Positions 13,561 to 25,874 of a stretch of 39,625 nt of DNA are shown piece by piece. This stretch comes from an uncultured Anaerolineae bacterium (GTDB taxonomy: Bacteria > Chloroflexota > Anaerolineae > Anaerolineales > Villigracilaceae). Each line of letters begins with the position of its first letter. Position 1 is the first letter of the stretch. A program made the position numbers and the translations under genes. The notes below the pieces were generated by a model. It was given only the letters and a program-made list of their open reading frames with translations, did no database searches and was not told the DNA's origin. The stretch spans positions 1 through 39,625 of the forward strand of contig CAIWAX010000157.1 in the NCBI GenBank assembly GCA_903910795.1, written 5' to 3'.

Positions 13561-15240
13561 TCATAGCACTTCATTCTCGTATAGGATCTCGTATTTATAG
13601 CCCTGTTCGGTCAGGAATCTTTGCCGGTTGGCGGCGAAGGTCTGGTCAACCGTTTCGCGAGTGACGACCGTGTAGAAATGGGCGATGGCCCCATCGCTCT
13701 TGGGGCGCAGGATGCGTCCGAGGCGCTGGGCTTCTTCCTGGCGGCTGCCAAATGTCCCGGAAATTTCGATGGCAACGCTGGCATCCGGCAGGTCAATGCT
13801 GAAATTGGCGACCTTGGAAACCACCAGGATTTTCACCTGTCCGGTACGGAATTGTTCATAGAGTTTTTCTCGTTCTCGCACAGGGGTCTGTCCATTAATG
13901 AGCGGGGCCTGTATAAGCGTGGCGACTTCATCCAATTGGTCGAGGAACATGCCGATTACCAGTATGTTTTCACCGATGTGTCGTTCCAGGATGGCCTGCA
14001 TCACAGGGAGCTTGCGCGGGTTGTGCGCCGCTATCGAGTATTTCTCACGCTGCGCTGCTGTAGCGTACTCCATGCGGGCGCTTTCTGCCAGCGGCACGCG
14101 GATTTCATGACAAATGGCGGTAGCGATCCAGCCTTGCTTTTCCAAATCCCGCCACGGCACATTATATTTCTGCGGCCCAATCAGCGAGAAAACATCGCCT
14201 TCCATGCCATCTTCACGCACCAGCGTGGCGGTCAGCCCCAATCTGCGGCGGGCCTGAATTTCAGCGGTGATACGAAAAACGGGGGCGGGGAGCAGGTGGA
14301 CTTCATCATAGATGATCAAGCCCCAGTTGCGGGCGCTGAATAAGCCAAAATGCGGGTACTCATCAGCGGAGCCTCGTTTGCGATAGGTGAGGATCTGATA
14401 CGTGCTGACCGTGACAGGCCGGATATCTTTTTGTAAGCCCGAATATTCCCCCACCATATCTTCTGTCAGCGAGGTTTTATCCACCAGCTCGCTCATCCAT
14501 TGGCGGACGGCCACGGTGTTGGGAGTTAGAATCAACGTGGAAGTCTGTAACTGCGCCATGGTAGCCATACCCACAATGGTTTTTCCGGCACCGCAAGGCA
14601 GCACAATCACCCCACTGCCGCCGCTCGCCGCGCCGCCCGCGTGAAAGACTTCCGCAGACTCTTCCTGGTAGTGCCGCAAATGGAAAGGTTTCCCAGCGGT
14701 TGTTAACATGCGCAGCGAAATCGGTAAATCTTCACCCGCCACGTAACCGGCCAGATCTTCGGCGGGATAGCCGATTTGCAGCAGGGCCTGCTTCAGGTGC
14801 CCGCGCCGGCCAGGAGCTACCAGCGCGCGATGCTCATCCAGCCGCCCGTGCAGGTAGCGCGCGGTGGCTTTATGGGTTTGGATTTCCACCATCAAGGTAG
14901 TGTCTTCGCTGGTCACGATCAGGTTTTCGCCTTCGCGAATAAGTTTGACGCGCCCATAACGACCGATATATTCATCGATATCGCGCACCACGTTGGATGG
15001 CAATCCGTATTTGGAAAAATCCTCCAACTGTGCCAAAATCTCGGCGGCGGTCAGCCCGGATGAGGCCGCGTTCCACAGCGAAAGCGGCGTAATGCGGTAG
15101 GTATGGATGTATTCGGGGGATTTTTCCAATTCAGCAAAACGCGCCAGCGCATCGCGTGCGGCTTCGTAGCGCTCGTTTTGAACTTCGAGCAACAGACTTT
15201 TATCACCCTGAACGATCAATGGGTTAGATGGTGATGGCAT
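13561..15240 (-). CDS. XPB/Rad25-family DNA repair helicase
   Basis: Walker A VLPCGAGKTIVGMA, DEVH box IIYDEVHLLPAPVF, RED motif LTATLVREDGMEGDVFSLIGP, motif VI EAQRLGRILRPK. Confidence 0.93.
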   Translation of the reverse strand: MPSPSNPLIVQGDKSLLLEVQNERYEAARDALARFAELEKSPEYIHTYRITPLSLWNAASSGLTAAEILAQLEDFSKYGLPSNVVRDIDEYIGRYGRVKLIREGENLIVTSEDTTLMVEIQTHKATARYLHGRLDEHRALVAPGRRGHLKQALLQIGYPAEDLAGYVAGEDLPISLRMLTTAGKPFHLRHYQEESAEVFHAGGAASGGSGVIVLPCGAGKTIVGMATMAQLQTSTLILTPNTVAVRQWMSELVDKTSLTEDMVGEYSGLQKDIRPVTVSTYQILTYRKRGSADEYPHFGLFSARNWGLIIYDEVHLLPAPVFRITAEIQARRRLGLTATLVREDGMEGDVFSLIGPQKYNVPWRDLEKQGWIATAICHEIRVPLAESARMEYATAAQREKYSIAAHNPRKLPVMQAILERHIGENILVIGMFLDQLDEVATLIQAPLINGQTPVREREKLYEQFRTGQVKILVVSKVANFSIDLPDASVAIEISGTFGSRQEEAQRLGRILRPKSDGAIAHFYTVVTRETVDQTFAANRQRFLTEQGYKYEILYENEVL

Positions 15241-17045
15241 TATTCAATCTCAATGATAAATTTACTCGCCAGTTTTGCGACTGCCTGATCAAATTTTGGC
15301 TGTTCTTTTTGTTGGAAGCTGACCGCGCGTGTGACCGGGTCGGATTGGAAGGGGCAGCGCAACTCAGCCAACATTTTCTTGAAAGTATCGAAAGATTCGT
15401 TATCCGGGAATTGGTAGCTGACAGTGATAACGCGCCTGATCTTAATCTGGCGGGCGGGCTGCGTGGCTGCATCGAAAGCTGTTTCTTTTGAGAATATGCT
15501 TTGGGCGGTTTCAGCGACTGGGGTGAATTCATCCATTTTGTGCTTTACCCGCACCGGCACACGACTGAGATTTTCTAACATGGAAAAAACAGCGTCCGGA
15601 TTGCGAACCAGGAATAGGCCGGAAGAAATTCTCTCGGCTATGAATTTTTCGGCTTCAATCGGCGGGTCCGTCATTTCGAGCAGGGAAAAGCCTTCGTACA
15701 ACGTAAACTGATCGGCATGACCAGACCATTCATCCAATTCGATTTGCACATTTGGCGGCAGGTCGCGCCCGCTGAGTTTTCTTAGCAGGGAATTCACATC
15801 CAAATCCGGATTTTTCACCTGCGCGGCGGCAACCAGGGCTTTCTTGAGTTGAAAAATGCCAACGTAGGCCACCTGCCCGCTCTGAGGATTGGACATTTGC
15901 TCTCCGAGCATGGCTATCTGGCGGAGGACAACCGCCGGGTAGAAGTCTGATTCAATGATGATATCAAAGTTAGGCTGAATAGTGACTTTTGGGGTGGTTT
16001 CGAGCCCCTTAAATAAATTAATAAATCGTTCGTTGATGCGAAAAGCCTTGAGATAACCGAGTTTGGGCAGCAATCCGGTGTAGGGCGCGGGATCATAGGC
16101 CACATCCACGAACCCCATGATGAGCGGGATGTTTTCGAGGAAGCGCTCAATGTAGCGCCCCTCAACACGCTCGAAGCCATCCTGTATGTCATCAGGAATG
16201 GGTTTATTGTTATTGTCCCAGTGACCAGCGCCTTCGTAAAAATTGCCGTAACGGGTGATGATCTCACCCCATTTATTTTTAGGTTCGGGCAGCTTTTCGG
16301 GGATGAGGAAGTAGCGGTGGTTGTCTCTGAGGTGCTCGATCAGCGATTGCGTACTGAGCCATTGACCTGCAGGACAATTTTGGAGCGCGGCCAGCAAAAA
16401 CTTGCGAATTTCCGGGAATTTGATGGTGGGCATCACCCCGGTGCCTGAACCCCGTATATAAAACCCATCCAGTTCGCCAACCACACTGGTTTTATAAAAC
16501 TCATTATTGCTGGATTGATCATATTCAGAAGCTGCCTTGATATCAAGGAGCGCATCGATGATACGCTTTTCCTGCGCTTCAGGAGAAAGATTAAGAAATT
16601 TTCCAATATCCGCATCATTGGCGTTGATGTAGTTTTCGTTGAAGGATTCTTCGGAACTGGTATAGCCGCGGTATTCCCCTTTTAAGGTGTAATAAACCAA
16701 CTTCAGGTTGAGCGCAAGTTTGTCAATAAGATCAATCCACATGTGCCCTGCGGGTTGGACGGGGTCAATTTGACCTGCGTTAGGTTCAAAGGTCAGGTTG
16801 CCAAATAGTTTGGCCATGCGATTCAAATCAGCACGCGGGATTACATTGCTGCGTGCCATGCGTTTAACGCTGTGTTCGCTGACGTAATCGAGGTAAGTAA
16901 ACAGATCGCGCAAAATGTCACGGTTATTGGAGAAGATTCGCAGGGGCTTGGGGTCGATGGGTTGTAATTGCATATTTAAGGTGATTTTCAAAAAGCTGAA
17001 ACGCTTTCGTACGATTTGCTTAGCGAATCGTACCTGGATATTCAT
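15240..17045 (-). CDS. Helicase-associated protein (Helicase_C_3-like) coupled to XPB
   Basis: Immediately upstream of XPB on the same strand; VTIQPNFDIIIESDFYPAVVLRQIAMLGEQ resembles Helicase_C_3 domains. Alternative start at 16973 (MQLQPIDPKPLRIF). Confidence 0.65.
   Translation of the reverse strand: MNIQVRFAKQIVRKRFSFLKITLNMQLQPIDPKPLRIFSNNRDILRDLFTYLDYVSEHSVKRMARSNVIPRADLNRMAKLFGNLTFEPNAGQIDPVQPAGHMWIDLIDKLALNLKLVYYTLKGEYRGYTSSEESFNENYINANDADIGKFLNLSPEAQEKRIIDALLDIKAASEYDQSSNNEFYKTSVVGELDGFYIRGSGTGVMPTIKFPEIRKFLLAALQNCPAGQWLSTQSLIEHLRDNHRYFLIPEKLPEPKNKWGEIITRYGNFYEGAGHWDNNNKPIPDDIQDGFERVEGRYIERFLENIPLIMGFVDVAYDPAPYTGLLPKLGYLKAFRINERFINLFKGLETTPKVTIQPNFDIIIESDFYPAVVLRQIAMLGEQMSNPQSGQVAYVGIFQLKKALVAAAQVKNPDLDVNSLLRKLSGRDLPPNVQIELDEWSGHADQFTLYEGFSLLEMTDPPIEAEKFIAERISSGLFLVRNPDAVFSMLENLSRVPVRVKHKMDEFTPVAETAQSIFSKETAFDAATQPARQIKIRRVITVSYQFPDNESFDTFKKMLAELRCPFQSDPVTRAVSFQQKEQPKFDQAVAKLASKFIIEIE
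17009..17033. repeat. Dispersed palindromic element, family 1, copy 2
   Basis: GTACGATTTGCT-T-AGCGAATCGTAC, arms with one mismatch. Confidence 0.85.
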
Positions 17046-18439
17046 CAGGGCTTGATCGTTTTAATGACAAATCCTGTTTTTTTGAGAACTTTCTCCACAT
17101 TAGGGCGAGATTCTTTCGGAAAGGCAATGTATTGTTCGCTTAGGATCACGATATTATTTTTTAGTTCGCGCTCAAGTTGAACGCGCAGGCTTAAATCACG
17201 AACGCAGGCGACCAGCAGGTTGTCGTGCTGAAGGGTTTTCCCCCAGCGAGCGTTGACCGTTTCGAGAGCTTTGCCAAAGCTTGGAATATTTTCTGCCAGC
17301 CAGCGCGAGAGTGGCGCCCGACGTTGGGCAGGGCTGGCCTGTCCAAGCTTGACCAGGCTCGGCGAGGCCAACAGGACGTTATTTTCGATGGCGAGACGCG
17401 CAAGGCTGTTGAGCTGGGTGAGATCGTGGAAGGGGATCAGGCGCAAATCCACTATCAGGGAACCTGGTTTGGATGTGGTGTCTGCCCATTTCGTACGATT
17501 TGCTAAGTAAATTGTGCCGGGATATTTATTGGACGAGGCAGGGTCGGGGGTACTGGGCTCAATGGGTAAATGCACTGGAGCGAGGCGATAATGGGGAACG
17601 GAATCAATATCCAGCCGCGATAGCAAGCCCAAATCCCAGCCTTTTTTTAGTAATTTTTCGGCGGGCGGAATCATACCCCCAAAACAGTATATTTTCAGGG
17701 CAGGCTCGAGAGTTTTCGGGTTTGTCCAGTCTGTGCTGGATAATAACTTGAGCACAGCTTCGGTGGGTGAGATCGAGGCGGGTACGGTAGGTTTGGGGGC
17801 GCCCAAGGCATTTCGCCAGGCTTCGGTCTGCCAGATGGCGATGGTGGCAAGCGAGAATGGGAAATCTTTGATATAAAGGCTGCCGTGTTTTATGCGGATC
17901 GGCATCTGGTCATGGGAGATGGCCGGGCTGCCGCCAACCAGTTCGAGCAGTTTGCGGCGGACAGAGGTCTCATTTTCCAGGCCGGCTTTTTCATCCCGGA
18001 CGGCGGTTAAAAGTGGAAGATAGGGGGCGAATTCTGCAGGCATGGCAAAGCGCCAGCGTTCAAGCTGGACGGTATCGCCACGCATTTTGATTTCAGCCAT
18101 AATAACCAATCCGCGCCGGACGAGATTTCTTTTAACGGTTTCAAAAATAGGCTTATATTTTTGAGAATATGTGCCATGTTGGTTGCTGACAGGATAGAGT
18201 CTCTCGAAAAAGGAGATGTCCACTTCGCCGGTTTCATGCAGCAGGCGCAGAGTAATAGTTTCCTCTGGGGTGAGCGCGGCTATGTTTTCCGCCACGCCAA
18301 TGGATGAGACATAAAAACTGGCATAGGAAGTGCGCGAAACAGTTTCTTTGTCGCTGAATCCACGCGCTTTCCGGATGGCATTTAAATCGGCGTCAGGAAG
18401 TTCAGCGCACATGCTGTGAAGCAATTGAAGAATGGACAT
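17045..18439 (-). CDS. Hypothetical helicase-associated protein, first gene of the XPB operon
   Basis: ATGA overlap with the downstream gene. Start ATG at 18439 (MSILQLLHSMCAELPDADLNAIRKARGF) fits better than the track start at 18475. Confidence 0.6.
   Translation of the reverse strand: MSILQLLHSMCAELPDADLNAIRKARGFSDKETVSRTSYASFYVSSIGVAENIAALTPEETITLRLLHETGEVDISFFERLYPVSNQHGTYSQKYKPIFETVKRNLVRRGLVIMAEIKMRGDTVQLERWRFAMPAEFAPYLPLLTAVRDEKAGLENETSVRRKLLELVGGSPAISHDQMPIRIKHGSLYIKDFPFSLATIAIWQTEAWRNALGAPKPTVPASISPTEAVLKLLSSTDWTNPKTLEPALKIYCFGGMIPPAEKLLKKGWDLGLLSRLDIDSVPHYRLAPVHLPIEPSTPDPASSNKYPGTIYLANRTKWADTTSKPGSLIVDLRLIPFHDLTQLNSLARLAIENNVLLASPSLVKLGQASPAQRRAPLSRWLAENIPSFGKALETVNARWGKTLQHDNLLVACVRDLSLRVQLERELKNNIVILSEQYIAFPKESRPNVEKVLKKTGFVIKTIKP
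17493..17517. repeat. Dispersed palindromic element, family 1, copy 3, inside a CDS
   Basis: GTACGATTTGCTAAGTAAATTGTGC; on the minus strand it encodes GTIYLANRT in frame. Confidence 0.75.
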
Positions 18440-18588
18440 ACCGCGATTGTACGGTATGAATAGCAGGGCTGTCAAATATTAAGTGCCCCGATTGTGAAAA
18501 GCCCTGTGAGTTTGTGAGCGGGAATGGCTCGCGGCGCGGTGTTTGCCTGTGATCTTCTACTAAATGTCTCTAAATTGCGCCAAAGGTC

Positions 18589-18631
18589 TTGACGAAACTA
18601 ACGATTGAATGTATTATTAGAACAATTGTTC
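18589..18631 (+). promoter_or_regulatory. Sigma70-like promoter with operator palindrome for the XRE-Wadjet operon
   Basis: TTGACG (18589-18594), 17-nt spacer, TATTAT (18612-18617), then perfect palindrome GAACAATTGTTC (18620-18631). Confidence 0.7.
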
Positions 18632-18633
18632 AC

Positions 18634-18885
18634 ATGAATACGAAACTCTCTACCACCGGACGTATCACCATCCTTTTGGGAAAACAGCAGGCCGAAACTG
18701 GGCAGCGCATATCGCCGCGCAAACTGGCCGAGCAGGCGGGCGTGCCAAAGGATTTTATCTACAGGCTGGATGCGGGTCAGGCGCGGCATATCGATCTGGA
18801 GTCGCTGGCGAAATTGTGCACGGCGTTGAAATGCCAGCCACAGGATATTTTGGTTTGGGAAGCAAAGTATGCCGAATCCATTTGA
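18634..18885 (+). CDS. XRE-family helix-turn-helix regulator
   Basis: SPRKLAEQAGVPKDFIYRLDAGQARHIDLESLAKLCTALKCQPQDIL; overlaps the jetA start. Confidence 0.85.
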   Translation: MNTKLSTTGRITILLGKQQAETGQRISPRKLAEQAGVPKDFIYRLDAGQARHIDLESLAKLCTALKCQPQDILVWEAKYAESI

Positions 18886-20326
18886 TATTCTGCCGCTTAA
18901 CTTATTCAATCTGTTCAGTACAATGGGTTTTGGCTCCCTGCAGCGGCATTATATGGCGATTTTGCTGCGGATATATACCATGGCAGAGTTCAACCGCTTT
19001 GGACTGACAAGGGAAGTGGTAGTGGATGAAATCGTTCACTACTTGAAGGAGGCTAACGCCGAGGGGGAGATCGCCGCGGAAATGGCGAACGATGCTGTGA
19101 GGGCGGATTTGCCCGCCAGCATGGAAACCGAATCTGTTTCGATCACAGGACAAAAATCCGAGCAGTTGTACACCTCATATCTGATCCGTCGTTTGGCGGA
19201 TACCGGGTGGATTGAACGCGAGCAACATGCCGATTATTCTGAAACCATTATCCTGCCGGATTATGCCTTTACGCTGTTGGAAGCCTTGCGTACCATTCAG
19301 GAACAAAAACCGCGCGAATTTACTGGACAACTTTACGCCGCGCACCAATTGATTACCTCGGCAACCACCAACAAGGATTTTTCACCGGCACTGGCTGTTA
19401 CGCAAACATATGAAAATGTGCGACAGGTGGTGCGCGGGTTGAGCGAACTGAACCAGAACATACGCCGTTATGTGGAACGGGCCACCCGGCAAACCGAAGT
19501 TGCCACGCTTTTGCGCCTGCAATTTGATGATTACACCCAGACGCTGGGGCCTGCTTACCATGCCCTGAAGACATCCGATCATGTCTCGCGCTACCGGCGC
19601 GACATTATCAACCAGATCGAAAGCTGGCAGTTGGATGGCGACTGGCTGACCCATACCGCCGAAGAGCTGGCCGCGCAAAGCCGGCTTTCCCCAGCCCAGG
19701 CTGAGTCTGAAATCAGCCATTATCTGACGTTTATCTCCAATCAACTTGAGGGGTTGGATCCACTGCTGGCGGATATTGACAGCCGTCACGCCCAATACTT
19801 ACGCACATCCCTGCGCCAGGTACGTTACCAGCTTGGCAGCGCCGATGGAAGTTTCAAAGATAAACTGGTTTCGCTGGCCAAAGGTTTATCGGCTTTGCGT
19901 ACCAGTGGGCTGACTGAGCTTCCAGATGATGCACCGGGGCTGCGGCAAATGCCGGTGCGCTCGCCGGATGCACGCAGTTTTTACACTCCGCCCCAACGCC
20001 GCGCACCCTTCACTCCCGATGACATCATCCTGCCAGTCCTGCATCCCGATGACCTGCTGGCCTTGCATGCCGCCACCATGCAGGATGTAACCCAGGCTTT
20101 TTCACCCGAAAAAGTCAACCGCAAAGTGATGGGGTTTTTCAACGGTCAAAAACGCTTGAATATTATCGAAATCCCAACCGAAATTTGTCAGGATTTGCAC
20201 TGGCTGACCACTATTATCGCCTACGCCCACCATCCCGAAGTCAGTTACGGGCTGGAGACGGCAGCAGGTGAGCCGGTGCGAGTGGGCAATTACCGGGTGG
20301 CGCCTTTCGATTTAACGCGTAAATAA
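18869..20326 (+). CDS. jetA: Wadjet system protein JetA (kleisin/MukF-like)
   Basis: 485 aa with N-terminal winged-helix-like and long helical regions; first gene of a canonical JetA-B-C-D order. Confidence 0.83.
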   Translation: MPNPFDILPLNLFNLFSTMGFGSLQRHYMAILLRIYTMAEFNRFGLTREVVVDEIVHYLKEANAEGEIAAEMANDAVRADLPASMETESVSITGQKSEQLYTSYLIRRLADTGWIEREQHADYSETIILPDYAFTLLEALRTIQEQKPREFTGQLYAAHQLITSATTNKDFSPALAVTQTYENVRQVVRGLSELNQNIRRYVERATRQTEVATLLRLQFDDYTQTLGPAYHALKTSDHVSRYRRDIINQIESWQLDGDWLTHTAEELAAQSRLSPAQAESEISHYLTFISNQLEGLDPLLADIDSRHAQYLRTSLRQVRYQLGSADGSFKDKLVSLAKGLSALRTSGLTELPDDAPGLRQMPVRSPDARSFYTPPQRRAPFTPDDIILPVLHPDDLLALHAATMQDVTQAFSPEKVNRKVMGFFNGQKRLNIIEIPTEICQDLHWLTTIIAYAHHPEVSYGLETAAGEPVRVGNYRVAPFDLTRK

Positions 20327-20339
20327 CTCACAACCTGCC

Positions 20340-20364
20340 ATGGATATCCCGGTTTCAGTACGGG
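20340..20364 (+). repeat. Dispersed repeat, family 2, copy A (jetA-jetB gap)
   Basis: ATGGATATCCCGGTTTCAGTACGGG; CCCG...CGGG mini-stem. Confidence 0.7.
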
Positions 20365-20427
20365 TGCGTATCATAGGTAGCCCTATTTGCCGCAACCAAT
20401 CAATCTCAACCTCCCACGGAACCCAGC

Positions 20428-21054
20428 ATGCCTTTCTCGTCTGAAACTCTGCTTACTGACATCCCTGAAAAATCACGCCGCGATGTGCCGCGCATCGTCA
20501 ACCGCTTGCTCGGGCAGACTTTCCTCTACCAGGACGTGGATACCGACAAGGACGATTACTATTTTGTTCACCGGCATCGCCCGGTTTTTGAAGGACTGCT
20601 CGAACTGGCTGGTTTTAGCCTGCTGCATGATGATTATCACCGCATCTTTCAGGCTGTTTCTGATTTCAGTTACTGCCGCGCGCGCTACAAGCTTGATGAA
20701 AGCCTGATGATCGTTGTTTTGCGTAAACTGTACGAGGAGAAAATCGAGCACCTCAGCCTGGCCAACGATCCGGTGGTCACGATTGGCGAGGTACGCGAAG
20801 AATACCGTACCATTACAGGCAAGGAACGCGACCTGGGCGTAATCCAATACGAAGCTCTCTTACGTCGTTTGCGTTCGATCGGGTTGATTGACACCATCGA
20901 CGGCCGCTCGATCGATGTGCGTGACAGTGAATCCCGGCTTCGTCTGCGCGGTTCGGTCAGGCTGATCTTGCCGATCCAATCAGCCGATGAGTTGGAAGCC
21001 TGGCTGAGGAAATACAGGACTGGCGGCGATGAAAGTGAAAGCGAAGAAGAGTAA
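20428..21054 (+). CDS. jetB: Wadjet system protein JetB (MukE-like, DUF4194-type)
   Basis: 208 aa; LLGQTFLYQDVDTDKDDYYFVHRHRPVFEGLLELAGFSLLHDDYHRIFQA; directly precedes an SMC-like ATPase gene. Confidence 0.85.
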   Translation: MPFSSETLLTDIPEKSRRDVPRIVNRLLGQTFLYQDVDTDKDDYYFVHRHRPVFEGLLELAGFSLLHDDYHRIFQAVSDFSYCRARYKLDESLMIVVLRKLYEEKIEHLSLANDPVVTIGEVREEYRTITGKERDLGVIQYEALLRRLRSIGLIDTIDGRSIDVRDSESRLRLRGSVRLILPIQSADELEAWLRKYRTGGDESESEEE

Positions 21055-21117
21055 AAAGTCAAAAATATCTTCTGCCCATCTTTTCCGTGCGCTTTGCCAA
21101 CATCGTCCCGACACCTG

Positions 21118-21139
21118 CACTTGCGTTCCAGTGCAAGTG
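21118..21139 (+). repeat. Small hairpin in the jetB-jetC gap
   Basis: CACTTGC-GTTCCAGT-GCAAGTG; an alternative overlapping stem TGCACT/AGTGCA is possible. Confidence 0.5.
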
Positions 21140-21252
21140 TGCCCTGGCAGAGCCGGGAGCAAACCGCACCGGGATAATCCCATCCTCAGAATTGTTTGAC
21201 GAAACCAACAACAACGCTGCCCGGCAATTACTACGCAACAGGATAAACCTCC

Positions 21253-24200
21253 ATGAAACTTCTAACCCGAATCCGCCTTGTCAACTGGCATTTGTTTGAA
21301 AACACCACTATCAACTGCCAGGGAACCACTTATTTTATCGGCATTAATGGCGCGGGCAAGTCGACCGTGCTTGACGCCGTGCAGTTTGCCCTGGTAGGCG
21401 GGCAGCGGGATGTGCGTTTTAACCAGGCGGCGCTCAGCGGCGGCAAGCGTACGCTGGCAAGTTACGTGCGCGGCGAGCTGGGCACCGAAGGTCAGCGTTA
21501 CCTGCGCGCAGATGCCACGGGTGTGGTGGCGCTCGAATTCAAGAACCCGGATGGCACGTTCTTCACGCACGGAGCGGTCATCGATGCGTATGAGGATGGC
21601 CGCAACCCGGATGTGGCTTATTTTATTGTTCACAACGCAGCGATCAATGATGATTGGTTCTTCAAGTCACCCGGCCAGGTTTTCGATACGCGCAGTTTCA
21701 AGCGACATCTTGAAAACTTCGCTTTGCCTGCCGCAGGCCGCGCCCAGATCTTTTCGCGCCTGGAAGATTACCGGGTGCACCTGCTCAATCGTCTTGGGCA
21801 GCTTAAAGATACCTTTCCCGCCAAAATCGTCAAAGGCCTGGCATTCAGCCCATTGACCGATATTCGTTCCTTTGTGCATACCTACCTGCTCGATGAAAAC
21901 CTGGTGGATGTCAAAACCCTGCAAGCCCAACTTGAAACTTTACGACACTTTGAGAGCCTGGCTGTCAATGTCCGCGAGCGGATCGACTCTCTCAGCCGTA
22001 TTGAAGAGCTCGACAAAGAACGAACTGCTAATCGCCGCCGGCGCATTACCAATGCTTATGTCGCCCAGCGAGCGCAAGCGGATGTTTTTCTGGGCACCTT
22101 GAAAGCGCGCCGCCTGGAACTGGATGAAGTGAAACTGGCTCTCAGCCATGCTGAGCTTGAACGCGATGATCTGGCCCGTAACCTGGTGTTTGCCCAATCC
22201 GCGTTGACCGATGCGGAAGTTGCTCTGCGCACGGATCAGACTGCTGTGCACGAAAAAGACCTGCGCGAGAAAATAGCAGTTTTGAGCCACGAATTGGCTC
22301 TCCTGCAACAACGTAAACTTGAAATTGAGCGTTCGCTGGCGCGCGAACTGGCTGATGTAAAAAAGCTGCGCAATTATTTGCTGGCCGATAAAACCCCCAT
22401 TCCACCTGCCCTGAGTACATTTATCGCTGAAACCGTTGGGCGGATCACGCCCGAGGCAATCCGGGGGGTTCAAGAAGCCATCATGAGTCTCGCCCAAATT
22501 TTCTCCCGTTCAGAAACCCTGCTGATTGAAAAAGCTGCCGCTCTGCGTGAGGAAGCTTCAGGGCTCGAATCTGACATCCGCAAACTGCGGACCGGCGACC
22601 GCGATGCAAGCGTTGAGGTTGAAGCACCCAATACCGCAAAACTGCGGCGCATGATCCGCTCTGAACTTGGCCTGGGCGCCAACGAAGTCACATACCTGTG
22701 CAATGAGCTGATAATCCCAGATCTCACCTGGCAGGATGCGGTGGAAGGCATTCTTGGTATGAACCGCTTTGTCCTGCTGGTGCCGCCCGCGCAGTATGAG
22801 GCAGCCATGCAGCTTTATCGTCAAAATAAATCCGGTTTGCATGGCGCGATTTTGCTTGATAGCGATGCCATCATTCGCCACGGATCGCATAGTACAGCAT
22901 CTGAAAATGTCCTGGCATCCGAGGTTTCCACCAACGGGCCAGCCGCTCAGGCCTTCATTAACTTGATCCTGGGCAACTATACCAAATGCAATAGTATTGA
23001 AGAACTCCGACCCCACCGAACCGCCATCACGCGTGAATGCTTTGTGCGGCGCAACTATACCGACAGCCATCTAAACCCGCAGGTTTACAAGCGCTGGTTT
23101 ATCGGCGAACGCGCCATCCCACGTCAAATAGAACAACACCAGGCGCGGCTGGATGAAATTGCCAGCGAGATGATCCAACTTAATGAGCGTGCCAACGCGC
23201 TGCGCGAAAGATTGGCCCTGACACACGATAAAATCCGCCCGCTGGTGGAGCTCGAAGCGGCGCTGCCAACTTTGAGCCGGGTTGCGCCGCTCGAAGCGGA
23301 ACTCACCACTTTGAGGGATGAACTTTCCCGGCTGGATACCCGCTCGATCGACATACTCAAAGCCGAAGTGGAGCAGTGCCAATCGGTATTGCGAAAAGCG
23401 CAGGTTGAAGTTTCGTCCATCGAACGGAAACTTGGCAGTCTTGAAGGGGATGTCAAACATCTTGAAATGGAAGTTGTTCCCGGCCTGGAAAAATCTGCTG
23501 ATGATGCGCTGCAGAGCGCCGAGAATTTGCTTGTTCTGGAAAATGTTGACGAAAAGGGAGCGCAGGATTTGCGCTCCGATATTCAAAAAGAATACGAACG
23601 CCGCCGCGAACGCCAGCCGCTGGAAGTGATCCTCCAAAATGCAATCCACTACGAAAGCGATTACCAGACTGCTGAACAACGTTCGCGCGACCGCCTGAGG
23701 GAGGCCAAGCAGGAGTATTCGCTGCACTACGACTTCGGATACGATGAAACAGAATACGCAACACGCTATACGACCGAAAAAGAAAAGCTGGTGAATTCTG
23801 AGTTACCGGGCTATGAGACCCAAATCGCGCGCCAGCGCGGCCTGGCCGAGCAGGAACTGGTAGAAAATTTCATCCACCGCCTGCGCGAACAAATTGAGGA
23901 TGCCCGTCAGCAGTTGGCACATTTGAACAGTACCCTGGCTGGTCTGCGCTTTGGTGGTGAACGCTTTGAGTTTATCAACCAACCCGCTCCGCAGGTCAAA
24001 CAGGTTTATGACATGATCATGGACAGCCAGCAGGTCATGGGTATGGCGCTTTTTGATTCGGATTTTCGCCAGAAGCACCAGCAAGGTTGGGACCTGTTGT
24101 TTGAACGCCTGACCAGGAACGATGAGGAGAACATCGAACTGCGCGAACTGCAGGATTACCGCCGGTATTTACAATACGACATCCGCATTCATTATCCCAA

Positions 24201-24570
24201 CGGCGACCGGGCGCTGCTCAGCCAAATTAACGCCAAAAAGTCGGGCGGCGAAACCACCACGCCGTTTTACGTAGCCATGGCTGCTTCCTTTGCGCAGGCA
24301 TACAGGTTGAACCAGCCGCGCCCCTCAGATACCATCCGCCTGGCCCTTTTTGATGAAGCTTTTGGCAAAATGGATACAGCCCGCACTGCCAGCGCCCTGC
24401 AGTTTATGCGCCAGGCCGGGTTGCAGGTGCTGCTGGCTACCCCGCCTGATAAATCCGGGTCGCTGCTGCCGTATGTAGACAGCGTCTGCACCGTGGTTCG
24501 AAAGAATAACCACTCATTCGTGATTGAAATTGATAAAAGCGAGATGATCGCGGAGTTGGAAAAAGAGTAG
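21253..24570 (+). CDS. jetC: Wadjet system protein JetC (SMC/MukB-like ATPase)
   Basis: N-terminal Walker A FIGINGAGKSTVLDAVQFAL, long coiled coils, C-terminal signature KSGGETTTPFYVAMAASFAQ and Walker B LALFDEAFGKMD. Confidence 0.93.
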   Translation: MKLLTRIRLVNWHLFENTTINCQGTTYFIGINGAGKSTVLDAVQFALVGGQRDVRFNQAALSGGKRTLASYVRGELGTEGQRYLRADATGVVALEFKNPDGTFFTHGAVIDAYEDGRNPDVAYFIVHNAAINDDWFFKSPGQVFDTRSFKRHLENFALPAAGRAQIFSRLEDYRVHLLNRLGQLKDTFPAKIVKGLAFSPLTDIRSFVHTYLLDENLVDVKTLQAQLETLRHFESLAVNVRERIDSLSRIEELDKERTANRRRRITNAYVAQRAQADVFLGTLKARRLELDEVKLALSHAELERDDLARNLVFAQSALTDAEVALRTDQTAVHEKDLREKIAVLSHELALLQQRKLEIERSLARELADVKKLRNYLLADKTPIPPALSTFIAETVGRITPEAIRGVQEAIMSLAQIFSRSETLLIEKAAALREEASGLESDIRKLRTGDRDASVEVEAPNTAKLRRMIRSELGLGANEVTYLCNELIIPDLTWQDAVEGILGMNRFVLLVPPAQYEAAMQLYRQNKSGLHGAILLDSDAIIRHGSHSTASENVLASEVSTNGPAAQAFINLILGNYTKCNSIEELRPHRTAITRECFVRRNYTDSHLNPQVYKRWFIGERAIPRQIEQHQARLDEIASEMIQLNERANALRERLALTHDKIRPLVELEAALPTLSRVAPLEAELTTLRDELSRLDTRSIDILKAEVEQCQSVLRKAQVEVSSIERKLGSLEGDVKHLEMEVVPGLEKSADDALQSAENLLVLENVDEKGAQDLRSDIQKEYERRRERQPLEVILQNAIHYESDYQTAEQRSRDRLREAKQEYSLHYDFGYDETEYATRYTTEKEKLVNSELPGYETQIARQRGLAEQELVENFIHRLREQIEDARQQLAHLNSTLAGLRFGGERFEFINQPAPQVKQVYDMIMDSQQVMGMALFDSDFRQKHQQGWDLLFERLTRNDEENIELRELQDYRRYLQYDIRIHYPNGDRALLSQINAKKSGGETTTPFYVAMAASFAQAYRLNQPRPSDTIRLALFDEAFGKMDTARTASALQFMRQAGLQVLLATPPDKSGSLLPYVDSVCTVVRKNNHSFVIEIDKSEMIAELEKE

Positions 24571-24581
24571 GCTGTGGATAT

Positions 24582-24621
24582 ATGGATATCCCGGTTTATA
24601 TACCCTGAGGGCCAGTACGGG
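24582..24621 (+). repeat. Dispersed repeat, family 2, copy B (jetC-jetD gap)
   Basis: ATGGATATCCCGGTTT-[ATATACCCTGAGGGC]-CAGTACGGG; same core with a 15-nt internal insertion. Confidence 0.65.
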
Positions 24622-24632
24622 AGTAAGAGCTG

Positions 24633-25874
24633 ATGCAAATTTCTTTTAGCCCTTCGCCAGATGTTGCTTTTGTACTGAATACGCTGCTGGATACTTATGA
24701 ACGCCGCGCAACTCACAACGCTCTACGAAGCGGGGAGTATGCAGCGCGCGCCATTAAAGTTGATATTTCGGATGTGCCCATCCCGGCTTATTTCTCGCAG
24801 ACCGATCCCGGCCCGCGCATTTTAGCCAACGAACAATTCACAGCGCTTGAAAAGGCCGGTATGATCCATCTTGCTTGGCTGCCCGGCGAAACCGGTCATA
24901 TTCTACAGACCATTAAACTGGATGCGGAACAGGCCACCCGCCTTTATCCAGTGCTGAACCGCACGGCGTTGACCGCCCAGCGGGTGCGTCTCGAAGCCTT
25001 GCTTTTGGCTGATAAATTCCGCTTTGTCGATGACTGGCGGGCCAGGGCAATCCGGCAGATCCTGGCGAATCTGCGCGCCGGAAAATCTCCAATGCCCTTC
25101 AGTCTGACAGATAGCGAACTGGACAGCGACCTTCTGACAGTTTTGGAAGCCATCCCGGCGCTGCAGGCTGAAACGCCTTTCCGCGTTTTCAGTGTGCGTA
25201 TCTTCAATGACAGCAAGCGGCTGGAAGTGATCAAGGGCCAGCTTGTCAGCCTGGCGCGGATTGGGAATCCGGAATGGAAACGACTGCCAGCCGAGGAAGT
25301 TTTGCGGGAACTAAACCTGGTGCCCAACCCGAATTATCTACACCTCTCCGGGAACTGGCAACTTGGGCTGGAAAGCGGGGAAATTCTTTCGGTAGGCGGT
25401 TTCTTTCCTGCATTGGGGTTTCCCGCCGCTCAAACTGTTAACCTGCGGAGCGTGGCGGCTCACGCGAAGGCCATCCTGTCTATTGAAAATCTGACCACTT
25501 TCCACGAATTTATCCGTGCCCAGGATGGCAGTTATGCTGTCATCTGCACTTATGGAAATCCTGCGCCCGCAGTGCGGCGTTTGTTGCGCCTGGTTCCTGA
25601 TGAAACCCCGATCCTGCATTGGTCGGATCTGGATTACGGCGGTTTCAACATTCTCAGCCAGTTGCGGCGACTGGTCAGCGAGCGCATCCAACCCTACCGC
25701 ATGGATATCGCCACGTTGGATGGCAACTACGAGCGTTCCCGGCCGCTGACGCCCGCGGATAAGAGCAACCTCAAGAAACTGCTATTCCGGCCAGAACTGC
25801 GCGATATGCGCCCGGTGATTGAGCATTTACTCAAACGTGGGGTGAAATTGGAGCAGGAAGGCGTGGAAGTTTAG
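24633..25874 (+). CDS. jetD: Wadjet system protein JetD (DUF3322/DUF2220, TOPRIM nuclease subunit)
   Basis: TIKLDAEQATRLYPVLNR, VICTYGNPAPAVRRLLRLVPDETPILHWSDLDYGGFNILSQLRR (TOPRIM-like acidic motif); position after jetC. Confidence 0.88.
   Translation: MQISFSPSPDVAFVLNTLLDTYERRATHNALRSGEYAARAIKVDISDVPIPAYFSQTDPGPRILANEQFTALEKAGMIHLAWLPGETGHILQTIKLDAEQATRLYPVLNRTALTAQRVRLEALLLADKFRFVDDWRARAIRQILANLRAGKSPMPFSLTDSELDSDLLTVLEAIPALQAETPFRVFSVRIFNDSKRLEVIKGQLVSLARIGNPEWKRLPAEEVLRELNLVPNPNYLHLSGNWQLGLESGEILSVGGFFPALGFPAAQTVNLRSVAAHAKAILSIENLTTFHEFIRAQDGSYAVICTYGNPAPAVRRLLRLVPDETPILHWSDLDYGGFNILSQLRRLVSERIQPYRMDIATLDGNYERSRPLTPADKSNLKKLLFRPELRDMRPVIEHLLKRGVKLEQEGVEV

Follow-up and report, generated by a model that had tools for sequence, protein, structure and literature searches.

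The window, by which we mean the whole stretch of 39,625 nucleotides analysed here from an uncultured Anaerolineae bacterium, carries on its forward strand an operon for the plasmid-restriction system Wadjet, preceded by a gene for a small regulator of the XRE family. In this operon, the reading of open reading frames (ORFs) gave five genes between 18634 and 25874, all on the + strand and in the order xre-jetA-jetB-jetC-jetD. The locus is best read as a complete Wadjet type I operon, an ordinary machine under unusual control, and its promoter bears a palindrome which most likely represents a LexA (SOS) box of this lineage.

The operon

The genes and coding features are as follows.

18634-18885, + strand: xre, a Cro/CI-type helix-turn-helix (HTH) regulator of 83 aa (HTH_26, E=1.8e-13), with a probably leaderless mRNA
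18869-18885, + strand: overlap of the xre and jetA reading frames, 17 bp
18869-20326, + strand: jetA, Wadjet type I, kleisin by family, 485 aa (PADLOC JetA1, E=5e-85; PF18982, E=3e-79)
20428-21054, + strand: jetB, DUF4194, MukE/KITE-like, 208 aa (PADLOC JetB1, 7e-38; PF13835, 2e-20)
21253-24570, + strand: jetC, SMC-like ATPase, 1105 aa (PADLOC JetC1, 7e-264; SbcC_Walker_B PF13558, 3e-23; AAA_29 PF13555)
24633-25874, + strand: jetD, TOPRIM nuclease subunit, 413 aa, with the motif SDLDYGG (PADLOC JetD1, 2e-80; JetD_C PF09983, 3e-19)
25485-25487, 25626-25628 and 25632-25634, + strand: codons of the JetD TOPRIM catalytic residues E285, D332 and D334

In the Wadjet family, JetABC forms an SMC loop extruder and JetD is the TOPRIM nuclease which cuts small circular DNA. 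An earlier note on this DNA had described five same-strand ORFs with their lengths and motifs as a complete JetABCD operon led by an overlapping XRE gene, and all of these were recovered on the + strand. Pfam and PADLOC profiles matched each of the four subunits, JetA and JetB included, and the subtype, which that note had left open, came out as type I, the top PADLOC match of every subunit being a type I model. Its range had begun at 18589; the start codon of xre is the ATG at 18634, and the TTG at 18589 was rejected as a gene start since it lies within the -35 box TTGACG (18589-18594).

The translation of jetC retains the Walker A motif (GINGAGKST), the SGGE signature and the Walker B motif (DEAFGKMD) intact. 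The acidic residues expected of a TOPRIM site are likewise present in JetD, where E285 and the DxD pair D332 and D334 do not vary among 17 JetD sequences, and a profile search aligned this region with the TOPRIM domain of topoisomerase VI-A (2zbk, a weak Top6A match). Searches of solved structures with the single sequences of JetD, XRE and JetC returned no match. Nothing in the Jet proteins points to an inactive system.

Co-conservation of xre with jetA

Close relatives were defined as Anaerolineae-like genomes with a JetA at least 60% identical to that of the window and with the operon start available. With JetA as query, genome contigs yielded 25 loci, of which almost all bore the label Anaerolineae or Chloroflexi; close loci from this search and from whole genomes were pooled, and 28 loci including the window were used for the promoter comparison. 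An orthologue of XRE with 57-88% identity is located immediately 5′ of jetA in every close locus except one, L051 (7000-8030), in which a different short ORF (MGMYDTIYAELDCPFCG...) ends at the start of jetA. Of the 27 loci in which the start of jetA could be read, 20 show an overlap of 17 bp between the two genes; in the rest it measures 4-23 bp. Both the co-occurrence of xre with jetA and the frequency of their overlap, for which the earlier note had proposed checks, speak for xre as a co-conserved part of the operon. XRE and JetA also diverged in parallel (Mantel r=0.71, reached by none of 2000 permutations; mean amino-acid distance 0.29 for each protein), which owes in part to the common descent of the host genomes.

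Beyond this clade the arrangement disappears. A survey of 201 genomes of the phylum found a homologue of XRE (E<=1e-8) in 4, and the three strong ones are all situated at jet loci. Jet operons of other Chloroflexota classes, with JetA at 24-28% identity, lack the XRE gene in the loci that could be read, and three Wadjet loci on Bacillota plasmids have neither a small XRE gene 5′ of jetA nor the palindrome described below. Since these distant loci have neither xre nor the box, the arrangement is clade-specific, and by this comparison xre is a stable, clade-specific fifth component of the operon.

Promoter and probable leaderless start

Three elements were found in front of xre.

18564-18583, + strand: upstream element ATGTC-N10-GCCAA, ending 5 bp before the -35 box, a candidate operator of XRE
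18589-18617, + strand: sigma-70-type promoter TTGACG-17-TATTAT, its 17-bp spacer conserved in relatives
18620-18631, no strand assigned: palindrome GAACAATTGTTC, a GAAC-N4-GTTC box where transcription is predicted to start; it matches the LexA (SOS) box found in Anaerolineae

Across the relatives, the promoter consensus 5′ of xre is TTGACA-17-TATAAT. In many loci the start codon of XRE is located 6 nt past the -10 box, where transcription should begin, and in the window the distance is 16 nt. No Shine-Dalgarno sequence was found in the 20 nt before the XRE start codon in any of the 28 loci. Because of this lack and of the position of the XRE start at the expected start of transcription, the xre-jetABCD mRNA is probably leaderless or nearly so.

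The promoter palindrome as a probable LexA box

The GAAC-N4-GTTC box is exact in 21 of the 28 jet loci, has at most one mismatch in 27 and is located directly 3′ of the -10 box. It reaches into the start codon of XRE in roughly half of the loci (e.g. TTAGAACATGAGTTCTAA); in others it lies at least 10 bases upstream of that codon, and in some it is farther from the -10 box. As its position varies with respect to both the start codon and the -10 box, the palindrome is conserved in its own right and not through its overlap with the start codon.

In Gram-positive bacteria, LexA is known to recognise this same motif (PMC3323433). For comparison within the lineage, we took the lexA and recA loci of 17 genomes belonging to the same order. 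In Anaerolineae, lexA promoters follow the pattern TTGACA-taGAACNNNN(G)TTCG-TATnAT, with the box inside the promoter spacer, and most genomes show a TAGCAC-N4-GTTCGAT-like site, i.e. a GCAC-N4-GTTC variant, at a nearly constant position upstream of recA. When a weight matrix was built from 27 distinct lexA and recA promoter sites, with no jet site among them, the jet box came out first of 39,608 positions in the window and also took the first rank in every one of the 28 jet loci. In addition, the right-half variant ATTC in place of GTTC is common to jet boxes and to the boxes of lexA promoters. G000, the genome to which the window belongs, has a gene for a LexA with the domains LexA_DNA_bind and Peptidase_S24 (locus L069, contig C174), and a scan of this genome for exact AGAAC-N4-GTTCT gave 10 sites as compared to 1 in the control. 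Taken together, the first rank under a matrix built from lexA and recA sites, the variants shared with lexA and the presence of LexA in the host make the jet-promoter palindrome most likely a LexA box, and binding of LexA to the operon is likely on these sequence grounds.

Several observations weigh against this assignment. Few of the exact AGAAC-N4-GTTCT sites in the genome sit 5′ of textbook SOS genes, and a genome scan with the 16-bp LexA-like pattern at one mismatch showed no enrichment over the control. The close relative without XRE, L051, is also without a clear GAAC-N4-GTTC box. Genome G033 has a perfect jet box and a recA box, yet gave only weak matches to LexA domains. Finally, in the G000 LexA the cleavage region reads GRIGASLP, with Ala-Ser in place of the usual Ala-Gly; its catalytic Ser and Lys appear to be present.

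Elsewhere in the same genome (locus L135, 1500-1852, contig C63), the gene for a protein of 86 aa without a Pfam family has two LexA-like boxes 5′ of it, 50 bp apart. It is a possible SOS gene.

Upstream element and fold of XRE

The element adjacent to the -35 box has the consensus TTGTC-N10-G[AC]CAA and is found within 2 mismatches and with the same 5-bp gap to the -35 box in most of the 28 loci, at a background of about 0.09 per 100 positions. It was not seen in the Anaerolineae lexA promoters compared, and may be the site of XRE. The AlphaFold2 model of XRE (pLDDT, the predicted local distance difference test, 90) is a simple five-helix domain of the Cro type, flanked by short strands and with no extra domain. 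Foldseek placed C.BclI and C.AhdI at the top with TM-scores of about 0.52, with lambda cI, SinR and CapH nearly equal, and a profile search of XRE against solved structures gave weak HTH matches only.

Proposed control of the operon and alternative explanations

The explanation we consider best, with a probability of roughly 0.6, is a Wadjet type I system under the control of LexA, and hence of the SOS response, plus a dedicated XRE regulator. The gene content, the co-conservation of XRE, the conserved promoter and boxes and the identity of the jet box with the lexA and recA boxes of the lineage are observed; LexA binding, the direction in which XRE acts and an induction on DNA damage or on the entry of DNA are what we infer from them. 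In this model, a single sigma-70-type promoter would transcribe xre-jetABCD into an mRNA whose 5′ end coincides with the XRE start codon or slightly precedes it. In healthy cells, LexA on the box, probably together with XRE, would hold JetABCD low. DNA damage or incoming single-stranded DNA would lead to RecA filaments and to self-cleavage of LexA, and the operon would be released. XRE would be made first, coupled to JetA by the overlap, would probably act on the element next to the -35 box and would set or limit operon expression through feedback. The earlier note suggested that expression may be timed or limited by a built-in repressor, which is plausible as far as it goes; this reading is incomplete in that the promoter also has a box matching the LexA site of the lineage. 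A more far-reaching version is tentative and in our estimate falls somewhat short of even odds: Wadjet as a member of the SOS regulon throughout the lineage, with LexA at a leaderless start and a C-protein-like XRE, so that single-stranded plasmid entry or damage would trigger the destruction of plasmids.

The main doubt is that XRE itself could bind the palindrome, which would then be its own operator, with autorepression at the transcription start, no part for LexA and a likeness to the LexA box that arose by convergence. The binder of an operator is often encoded by the adjacent gene; box and XRE occur together in the clade and are both missing in L051 and in distant jet loci, and at jet promoters (TTAGAAC-N4-GTTCTAA) the two halves of the palindrome mirror each other more fully than at lexA. 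However, a matrix derived from lexA and recA alone puts the box first in every locus, the deviations tolerated in jet boxes resemble those of lexA boxes, and the separate conserved element beside the -35 box offers another site for XRE; we regard an exclusive role of XRE at the palindrome as unlikely. Somewhat less doubtful, and compatible with control by LexA, is a function of XRE as a timer in the manner of restriction-modification C proteins, i.e. delayed activation of its own and the nuclease promoter on entering a new cell, followed by limitation. The small size of the gene and its overlap with the leading gene of a nuclease operon, the start without Shine-Dalgarno sequence and hence probably leaderless, the conserved element immediately 5′ of the -35 box and C.BclI and C.AhdI as best Foldseek matches all fit such a timer. 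On the other hand, the TM-scores reach just about 0.52 and other repressors score nearly as well, TTGTC-N10-GMCAA appears to differ from the known C-box, a methyltransferase is absent from the operon, and the -35 and -10 boxes are already near consensus.

It is highly improbable that XRE, instead of regulating transcription, serves JetABCD as a loader or as an accessory subunit which binds DNA. Such a role would explain the overlap and the co-evolution with jetA, and the tight linkage, the conservation equal to that of JetA and the correlated divergence are in line with it; but distant Wadjet I systems exist without XRE, the protein is a plain 83-aa Cro-like fold with no additional domain, and the conserved operator-like elements of the promoter require a binder.

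Neighbouring genes and insertions in relatives

Divergently from the jet operon, a three-gene operon is located at 13561-18475 (- strand). It encodes a bacterial XPB DNA-repair helicase (NF045503, 862 bits) and two companions of 601 and 476 aa, which have no match in Pfam, NCBIfam or PADLOC. This operon was considered as a part of the system and rejected, as the jet operons of relatives do not have it next to them, a single weak helicase match in L040 excepted.

In five relatives, a gene for a four-helix protein of the 23S rRNA-intervening-sequence type is inserted in operon orientation between jetA and jetB or between jetB and jetC (L043 10166-10827, L045 6269-7130, L047 9432-10108, L048 5962-6551 and L056 9438-10107); the family call is based on a match to PF05635 in L045, the other four being alike by eye. 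In L052 (7020-7612), a gene for a GxxExxY/PDDEXK_3 protein (PF13366, 3e-43) is located between jetC and jetD. Two genomes of the same order contain divergent JetA-like genes with weak matches of 19-45 bits per piece, namely G063 (L016 and L018, contig C56), which also has the main Wadjet locus, and G076 (L014 and L017, contig C45). These genes possibly belong to another Wadjet-like system.

Significance

The Wadjet machine itself is known, and the findings are best filed as apparently novel with regard to its probable regulation by XRE and a LexA-type box. A search for Wadjet together with LexA or SOS, in a literature with most subscription papers missing, gave no paper joining them. Searches for such terms in a Wadjet review and in a paper on Wadjet of Clostridium cellulovorans did not hit any such regulator. 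The combination of a LexA-type box with a dedicated XRE provides a concrete and testable control circuit linking plasmid defence to the DNA-damage response. Conjugation and replication stress trigger this response, and the conserved box suggests an anti-plasmid defence which is switched on by DNA damage or by incoming DNA. Furthermore, xre is a regulator gene for which PADLOC holds no Wadjet model, its sole PADLOC match being a weak one to CapH.

Comparison with known systems

With Wadjet type I systems (homologues of MksBEFG/EptABCD) the window operon shares the order jetA-jetB-jetC-jetD, the type I profiles, the intact motifs of JetC and the TOPRIM residues of JetD. It differs from them by the co-conserved XRE gene overlapping jetA and by the LexA-type box, neither of which was seen in distant Chloroflexota or in the three Bacillota plasmid loci.

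The LexA/SOS regulons of Gram-positive bacteria have the same 12-bp palindrome at a promoter as the window operon, and the variants of the jet boxes are like those of the lexA promoters in this lineage. Here, in contrast, the genes concerned form a plasmid-restriction operon, and the box is located at the start of transcription and translation, whereas that of lexA lies in the promoter spacer.

A further analogy is found in the C proteins C.AhdI and C.BclI, which are likewise small single-domain XRE proteins encoded before and overlapping a nuclease operon, are the closest solved folds and share the probable leaderless start. Unlike their systems, the window operon has no methyltransferase, an apparently different DNA element and the additional LexA-type box. 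With phmmer, any sequence relation of XRE to these proteins was below detection; the control by XRE resembles the C-protein design by analogy, and membership among the C proteins is not claimed.

The control of the cyclic-oligonucleotide-based antiphage signalling system (CBASS) by CapH and CapP, which is linked to DNA damage, also places an XRE repressor on a defence operon, and CapH is the protein to which XRE has its weak PADLOC match (E=2e-4). No gene for a CapP metallopeptidase was found among the ORFs between 17045 and 26330 with Pfam. In the window operon, the damage signal would pass through LexA.

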